A stretch of 64,000 nt of DNA from Candidatus Zixiibacteriota bacterium (GTDB taxonomy: Bacteria; Zixibacteria; MSB-5A5; GN15; PGXB01), in assembly GCA_900498245.1 (NCBI GenBank), contig LS998015.1, positions 1,545,877 through 1,609,876 on the forward strand, written 5' to 3'. Made by a program: the position numbers and the translations under genes. Under the pieces are notes generated by a model. That model saw only the letters and a list, made by a program, of their open reading frames with translations. It was not told the DNA's origin and did not search any database. Below are positions 4,396 to 7,304 of the stretch, piece by piece (position 1 is the stretch's first letter; every line of letters begins with the position of its first letter).

Positions 4396-4893
4396 TTAAA
4401 AGGGGGCGAATCCGGCGTCGGCCCAGTAGTCTTCCTTCAGCGAATCCTGTTGGCTCAAAAGGGCATGGTAGTGACCCGCTTCCCATTCCGCCAACATGTC
4501 ATAGAATTTTTTGATTTCCGGGTCAGAGATTTCTTTCGCCTGAGATTTATAAAAATTCATGGCATCAAGTTCGAGCTGAATGCCGATAGCCAGGGCACTC
4601 ATTTCGATATGGGCCCCTTTGATGCGAGCTTTAATACTTTCGGAGAATATGGGAAACCCTCCTGTCAGTTCCGATCGGTTCCCCAATTTCAAATCGGGGT
4701 CGGGCCGCCCGGTCTTGATTATGGAATCAAGCTGCCCCTTAAGAAATCTCATATGGTCGAGTTCTTCGGCGGCTAGTGTATGGAAGACCTCTTTTCCTTT
4801 GGGATCCGACGTGCTATTGGCGGCCATAGTATAAAAGCTGTTACCCTCCAGCTCGGCCTTGATCCCTTTTTGCAATCCTTCGGCTATATTCAT
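4396..4893 (-). CDS. Rubrerythrin/ferritin-like di-iron protein
   Basis: 165 residues forming a four-helix-bundle ferritin-like domain. The paired iron-ligand motifs are visible: Glu in A-E-L-E-G-N near residue 14, E-E-L-D-H near residue 43, a second Glu helix (Q-L-E-L-D) near 107, and W-E-A-G-H near 137. There is no C-terminal rubredoxin domain, so this is the rubredoxin-less 'ferritin family/YhjR-like' type. Such proteins consume peroxide or store iron in the cytoplasm of anaerobes and microaerophiles. The ATG at 4893 has a good GAGGGAGAA ribosome-binding site. It is divergent from the pilin-like gene across a 266-base spacer. Confidence 0.85.
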   Translation of the reverse strand: MNIAEGLQKGIKAELEGNSFYTMAANSTSDPKGKEVFHTLAAEELDHMRFLKGQLDSIIKTGRPDPDLKLGNRSELTGGFPIFSESIKARIKGAHIEMSALAIGIQLELDAMNFYKSQAKEISDPEIKKFYDMLAEWEAGHYHALLSQQDSLKEDYWADAGFAPF

Positions 4894-6065: not shown

Positions 6066-6533
6066 TCAGGATTCGGCCGCTTCGGAATTATATAACTCAA
6101 CTCCATCCTGATTTTGCACTTTGACCGCAACCGGAATCCCCTTGCGGACACTTTGAGTCACTACGCAGAAATCCTCGAACAGGCGGATACACTGGCCCAT
6201 CCGATTGGGCGCTTCGGTGCCGATATCCATTCTGATGGCGACTTCGCTATTGCCGATCCGGAGCCGGCCCTTATCGGTGCGATGAAGGGCGGTGGTCACT
6301 TCCGTTTTGACATTCCCGACCTCGATCCGGGCTTTTTGAAGGCAGAAGAGGAGCGAAGCGGTCAGGCAATTGCCAATGGCGGCAGAGAGCACTCGCGAGG
6401 CATTCGGTCCTTTGTCGGCACCCAAAGGCGACGGCTCATCCATCAGGAGTTCCGCCATATGCGGCTCGAATTTAATATTGAATTCGAAATCCTTAATCCG
6501 CTCCATCGTGACCTTCAGCAGTTTTTCTTCCAT
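6066..6533 (-). CDS. OsmC/Ohr-family peroxiredoxin-like protein
   Basis: 155 residues with both redox cysteines in place: A-I-G-N-C-L-T-A-S in the central helix (about residue 55) and F-C-V-V-T-Q-S-V about 70 residues later. This is the arrangement used by OsmC and Ohr to reduce organic hydroperoxides. Two features, E-P-S-P-L-G-A-D-K-G-P-N-A at 34-46 and the overall length, match the OsmC-like branch. A GGAGCGGTC ribosome-binding site supports the ATG at 6533. It lies just downstream of the two-CxxC thioredoxin-fold gene on the same strand, which may point to shared thiol/peroxide chemistry. Confidence 0.85.
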   Translation of the reverse strand: MEEKLLKVTMERIKDFEFNIKFEPHMAELLMDEPSPLGADKGPNASRVLSAAIGNCLTASLLFCLQKARIEVGNVKTEVTTALHRTDKGRLRIGNSEVAIRMDIGTEAPNRMGQCIRLFEDFCVVTQSVRKGIPVAVKVQNQDGVELYNSEAAES

Positions 6534-6603: not shown

Positions 6604-7248
6604 TTATTTTGCCAGAGCCTTTAAGGCTTCCTCGACAAATTTCGGCTCGGGAACGGCGCCCTCGATATGAATCTTCTCGTTAACGACCGTCTTCGGGACA
6701 CCGTAAACCTGATATTTATTCGCCAGATGAGGAAACTCGGTGGCCTCGACCATATCCGAGGTGATATTATCGTTTTCCATGGCGAAAGCATGAGCCAGCC
6801 GCACCGCGGCCGGACAGTACGGTCAGGTCGGTGTTACAAAAACCTGGAAGTGAAGCGATTCCTTGACCGTTTTCAGCTTCTCGCGGGTCTTCTCCGACAG
6901 TCCCGAATCGCGTTTGGAAACCATAATGATATCATCGAGGAGCGATGCAAACTCGTACCCGGCCGGGATACCATAATAACGGATACCATAGTCTTTTTCT
7001 CCCATGACAATGGTCGCCGGGATTTTGTCGATTTTATATTGTTCAGCCACCGTTTTATCGGTGATAAAATTATAAACCAGAAGCGAAATCTTATCCGAAA
7101 GGGCGGTCAGTTCTTCCAGAAGCATTCTGGTTTCACGGCAGTACTGACATTCCAGCTCCTGGGTGAAATTGATGATCTTTACGGGATGGACCAGTTCTTT
7201 CAGCCGATCCTGAATCGCCTTGCGGTCTTTGTCGCTTATAAGGGCCAT
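6604..7248 (-). CDS. Protein disulfide oxidoreductase-like selenoprotein (TGA read as Sec)
   Basis: One frame of 214 codons interrupted only by TGA at 6823-6825, codon 142. It has two tandem thioredoxin folds: the first with C-Q-Y-C at 34-37 and a cis-Pro segment K-I-P-A-T; the second with [TGA]-P-Y-C-P at 142-146 and a cis-Pro segment Y-G-V-P-K-T. This is the layout of archaeal/bacterial glutaredoxin-like protein disulfide oxidoreductases (PDO), whose second site is normally C-P-Y-C. The TGA sits exactly where the nucleophilic Cys belongs, and coding similarity continues without a break after it. A SECIS-like hairpin follows. I read it as a selenocysteine UxxC thiol oxidoreductase. The start has an AGGAGG ribosome-binding site. 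If Sec insertion is wrong, this would be a nonsense-mutated PDO gene. Confidence 0.82.
6795..6825 (-). promoter_or_regulatory. Putative bacterial SECIS element at the Sec codon
   Basis: Reading the minus strand: UGA (6825-6823), a 9-base linker, then CCGGCCGC (6813-6806), loop GGU (6805-6803) and GCGGCUGG (6802-6795). All eight pairs form, with one G-U. The bacterial SECIS consensus calls for an apical stem whose short loop begins with G, about 16-37 bases after the UGA; here the loop G follows 17 bases after it. It lies inside the coding region, as bacterial SECIS elements do. Confidence 0.75.
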
Positions 7249-7304
7249 ATCAAACCTCCTGTTTTATCCATATAAATCTGATTCTCTCCGTCATGTTCCC
7301 GTAA

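Follow-up and report, generated by a model that had tools for sequence, protein, structure and literature searches.

The question raised by this locus is whether a TGA triplet that interrupts a long frame of a Candidatus Zixiibacteriota bacterium ends the gene prematurely or encodes selenocysteine (Sec). The frame is located in the window, by which the entire analysed stretch of 64,000 nucleotides is meant. It starts with ATG, ends with TAA and contains a single in-frame TGA, so that 214 residues are encoded when Sec at position 142 is counted. The evidence presented below indicates that the gene, which specifies a two-domain protein disulfide oxidoreductase (PDO), is very probably a selenoprotein gene in which UGA at codon 142 is read as Sec. 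The coordinates of the gene and its surrounding features are given in Table 1.

Table 1 Features of the PDO locus, in positions of the window
Feature	Positions	Strand	Basis
OsmC-like protein, Cys form	6066..6533	-	PF02566, 45.8 bits
Gene of putative Sec-containing two-domain PDO	6604..7248	-	TIGR02187.2; 1a8l; translation with TGA=U
Predicted bacterial SECIS hairpin	6795..6813	-	Folding; comparative pairing test; rules of PMC13188914
Second active site U-P-Y-C, residues 142-145 (U predicted)	6814..6825	-	Translation; homologue alignment
TGA, codon 142, very probably read as Sec	6823..6825	-	Translation; TGA/TGT/TGC only in 82 homologues
First active site C-Q-Y-C, residues 34-37	7138..7149	-	Translation; homologue alignment
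Ribosome binding site AGGAGG, ATG 6 nt further on	7255..7260	-	Sequence

The protein obtained by reading through the TGA scores 302.8 bits, well over the cut-off of 185, with the NCBIfam model TIGR02187.2 (PDO_seleno_TRX, "protein disulfide oxidoreductase"), the name of which points to Sec-containing members. The match spans residues 6-210 of the protein and positions 2-208 of the 209 in the model. A phmmer comparison with the Pyrococcus furiosus PDO 1a8l covered residues 1-212 (E = 5e-59), and the P. horikoshii PDO 1j08 could be aligned from end to end (E = 1.5e-58). The window protein shares with these archaeal enzymes two thioredoxin folds and two CxxC-type sites, but the second site of the archaeal PDOs, CPYC, has Cys where the window protein would carry Sec. 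The TGA codon aligns with the first Cys of this CPYC motif in both enzymes and homology is present on either side of it in one and the same frame, which bears out what the initial annotation had claimed on both points. Matching to 1a8l assigns one active site to each thioredoxin-fold unit (CQYC and UPYC), and on the basis of the sequence matches to solved PDOs the fold can be regarded as settled.

Homologues from members of the phylum, in which a family member over the cut-off is present in 21 of 133 genomes, were pooled with those from a GTDB genome scan, yielding 82 distinct sequences that cover the site. The codon at the Sec position is TGA in 20 of these, TGT in 35 and TGC in 27; no other codon occurs, and the resolving Cys three residues further on is present in all 82. 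The TGA forms are from records named Zixibacteria, Chloroflexi, Gemmatimonadota and TA06. In a maximum-likelihood tree, the Sec/Cys label changes 11 times, with at least nine of the changes forced by well-supported branches. Repeated exchange between TGA and Cys codons is a classic mark of Sec. Such exchange at codon 142 in close homologues was what the initial annotation had proposed to look for, and the stop or unrelated sequence that it had named as evidence to the contrary was not encountered among the 82.

An in-frame stop usually signals decay and a broken copy of the PDO gene does exist in one relative (G005, see below), which would fit a recent pseudogene or a TGA that is a sequencing error for TGC or TGT. 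Within the window's family, the TGA is retained in relatives with 93, 76 and 73 % identity, while a relative at 68 % carries TGT. The first of these three is a sister metagenome-assembled genome (MAG), and all three were assembled separately, which argues against a premature stop, as does the fact that TAA or TAG is never found at this codon in the 82 homologues. The dN/dS ratio between the window gene and its sister is 0.031 before the TGA and 0.027 after it; such strong purifying selection indicates that the region beyond the TGA is translated and constrained. Together with the conservation of the SECIS hairpin described below, this makes a premature stop highly improbable. An in-frame TAG is present in a Cys-form homologue of genome G108 (L038, identical to L103), where it replaces a conserved Tyr (EKD-stop-GVR); it may be a nonsense change or a sequencing error. 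The possibility that it represents a UAG-coded Sec was rejected, as the TAG is located away from the Sec codon, which is TGT in this gene.

Recoding of UGA at a hairpin by SelB and tRNA-Sec is an established mechanism in bacteria, and every component of it is present in the host genome, which is a single contig of 3,508,505 bases (98.9 % complete). The tRNA-Sec gene selC was detected with 71.9 bits (cut-off 47) and is called tRNA-SeC with anticodon TCA (UCA) by ARAGORN. The selB gene scores 325 bits (cut-off 242) over almost the entire model, and selA (486 bits) is located some 30 bp from it on the same strand. The selD gene (384 bits) has one in-frame TGA as well, which fits the known existence of Sec-containing SelD. 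The set of selA, selB, selC and selD that the initial annotation had suggested to search for is thus complete. Of 12 other genomes of the phylum that carry a TGA form and were searched for selB, 10 have a full-length match over the cut-off. A partial selB match, also over the cut-off, was obtained in G102, and in the 390-contig MAG G001 only a C-terminal piece of selB was found, along with selA; no selD over the cut-off was found in G001 or G013. Most of the Cys-form genomes of the phylum that were searched also have selB, so the machinery is necessary without being discriminating.

A different way in which the TGA could be translated is by reassignment of UGA in this host, for instance to Trp, or by suppression by an ordinary tRNA. 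UGA is, however, also a normal stop codon here: among the window's 66 stop-to-stop frames with 200 codons or more, TGA closes 26. Other homologues have Cys at the site, and the host possesses a tRNA-Sec with UCA anticodon as well as selA, selB and selD. Reassignment or suppression is for these reasons scarcely conceivable, and Sec insertion, the reading at which the initial annotation had arrived from the sequence alone, is the preferred explanation.

The hairpin expected for Sec insertion has an 8-bp stem, CCGGCCGC/GCGGCUGG, and an apical GGU loop (6805-6803). When the U of the UGA is numbered 1, nt 13-20 are paired with nt 24-31 and nt 21-23 form the loop. Published rules for bacterial SECIS elements specify a loop of 3-9 nt with G in its first two positions, a stem of 4-16 bp, a distance of 16-37 nt from the UGA and a minimum free energy of at most -7.5 kcal/mol (PMC13188914). 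The PDO hairpin is within all of these limits, with a 3-nt loop, 8 bp, a location 17 nt after the UGA and -13.9 kcal/mol for the stem-loop alone. The claim made earlier, of a SECIS-shaped hairpin at the correct distance, is in agreement with this and with the pairing test described next. The interval then proposed (6795-6825) had the correct 3' boundary of the stem, 6795, but it began at the TGA itself, whereas the stem-loop runs from 6813 to 6795.

Two registers of the hairpin were discerned among the homologues. The 3-nt loop occurs in six TGA forms, namely those of the window's family plus two more, whereas 12 have a loop of 5 nt and pair 15-20 with 26-31, so that all six tested pairs are formed in either register in 18 of the 20 TGA forms. 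The null consisted of 2000 sets of synonymous shuffles, which preserve each protein sequence; since the better of the two registers was picked after viewing the sequences, the same choice was allowed to the null. The TGA forms make a mean of 5.65 of the six pairs versus 3.81 (sd 0.19) in the null, a value reached by none of the 2000 sets. The mean in the 62 Cys forms is near background, with 3.24 pairs versus 3.08 (126 of 2000 sets). For the gene of the window by itself, 2 % of the synonymous recodings pair equally well. The mean apical folding energy is -10.4 kcal/mol in the TGA forms versus -5.9 in the Cys forms (P about 1e-7, which is indicative as the sequences are related).

Plain folding of longer windows gave unremarkable shuffle z-scores of -0.06 to -1.9, and it is the comparative pairing test that carries the case for the SECIS. 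Stem changes within a register are mostly one-sided (e.g., G-C to G-U), the sole two-sided one being a G-C to A-U change in the TGA form L051. It is therefore the synonymous test, along with the contrast between Sec and Cys forms, that supports the case, and not compensatory changes. The GU of the loop belongs to a conserved codon for Val and is just as common in Cys forms, and it is thus no evidence on its own. A scan of the locus with Rfam did not report a SECIS, the only match being a chance one to a CRISPR repeat, and the Rfam model SECIS_1 (RF00031) had no match in the genome nor in any of 14 control genomes, so that the lack of a match with this model tells nothing either way.

A few homologues depart from the general pattern of hairpins. 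The TGA forms L121 (Ardenticatenales, with the motif UAYC) and L070 (Gemmatimonadota) lack a hairpin in the tested registers, and their SECIS may have another shape; in L070 a different hairpin is formed, CGGCCGUAGUUACGG. The Zixibacteria Cys form L044 of G105 (identical to L082), with TGT at the site, retains all six stem pairs of the SECIS. Its sister is the TGA form L051, and the hairpin of L044 is likely to be a fossil SECIS that has followed a recent change from Sec to Cys. L051 itself, from G104 (identical to L104), has GQFC as its first site, with the first Cys lost, and a TAA near the N-terminus; it may be decaying, or its true start may be further in.

As a rule, UGA is recoded only in part, and the TGA is preceded by the whole of the N-terminal unit, its active site included. 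Termination at the UGA might accordingly yield a second functional product, a truncated 141-residue CQYC protein, with selenium supply switching between the two. Such a break would fall inside the second thioredoxin fold and leave a partial domain, and no sign was seen that a separate short product is under selection, which makes this variant very unlikely, if a little less so than a premature stop. In the favoured reading, with full-length Sec-PDO as the product, SelB with Sec-tRNA(Sec) would bind the GGU-loop hairpin, which starts 9 nt downstream of the UGA, and insert Sec at codon 142 to give UPYC. Sec would then serve as the nucleophile with which the C-terminal thioredoxin-fold site attacks. 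The mixed bond would be resolved by Cys145, and the selenenylsulfide so formed could be re-reduced via the N-terminal CQYC site, thioredoxin reductase, or both. Mutagenesis of a Sulfolobus PDO has shown that the C-terminal site is fundamental to thiol transfer (PMC7465337), and peroxiredoxins are known to receive electrons that PDO has taken from thioredoxin reductase (PMC7278568, PMC7465337). A TrxB is encoded in the host genome (383 bits). The window PDO may well be a reductase of cytosolic disulfides that is supplied by thioredoxin reductase, with electrons presumed to flow from TrxB via PDO to client disulfides. Both this direction of flow and the occupancy of the site by Sec in the cell are inferred. 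Likely clients would be cytosolic disulfides, peroxidases and possibly the adjacent OsmC.

Whether a Sec form of the two-domain PDO layout had been described was left open by the initial annotation; the literature answers this in the affirmative. In tables of later reviews, Sec-PDO is credited to Kryukov and Gladyshev 2004 (PMC9312934, PMC13188914). A 2006 survey lists it in Carboxydothermus hydrogenoformans and Symbiobacterium (PMC1794560), and a paper of 2024 describes it from Asgard archaea (PMC11227280). As Sec-PDO figures in published lists from 2004 onwards, the gene of the window is an addition to a known family and not a discovery. It shares with the known bacterial Sec-PDO the family model, the UxxC motif and a single Sec, and differs in its host, Zixibacteria, for which no report of a member was found in the literature searched. 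The Asgard Sec homologues of the N-terminal domain of AhpF belong, by name, to the same selenoprotein family, but they are archaeal, and the paper in question regards them as a new development out of Cys forms (PMC11227280).

General knowledge of selenoproteins is unchanged by the Zixibacteria Sec-PDO. What the analysis contributes is a number of well-supported Sec-PDO genes, from Zixibacteria and several other phyla, that would be truncated at codon 141 in a standard reading. The most useful extras are the repeated switches between Sec and Cys and the hairpin, apparently a fossil, of a single Cys form. The many related Sec/Cys pairs offer a natural set in which to ask what benefit selenium brings to a thiol-disulfide enzyme.

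The osmC gene follows the PDO gene directly on the same strand, with a gap of 70 bp. The two genes also adjoin in G001, G013, G006, G008 and one Calditrichota MAG. The OsmC of the window scores 40.7 bits with NF041052, the model of Sec-containing OsmC, which is under the cut-off of 95, and no in-frame stop was found in its gene. Its position next to PDO in the window and in relatives makes OsmC a reasonable client on the basis of adjacency, although a role of PDO in serving OsmC is put forward only tentatively. Equally speculative is a wider proposal, according to which Sec-PDO switches often between Sec and Cys (at least nine changes in the sampled set, with the SECIS kept or faded accordingly and the likely fossil hairpin in L044), and in the window's family forms a peroxide-reducing unit with OsmC, Sec speeding the regeneration of the peroxidase.

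A gene for a rubrerythrin-family protein (4396-4893, reverse strand; PF02915, 51.5 bits), another gene of the oxidative-stress type, is located at about 1.2 kb from osmC. In G005 (G005:C1:319156-319269; L006, 1501-1614), a genome of the same family as that of the window, the PDO gene is reduced to about its first 17 codons fused in frame to about its last 40, so that both active sites are lost. Its nucleosidase and OsmC neighbours are still present, OsmC adjoining the deleted gene, and the loss may be a real deletion or an assembly artefact.
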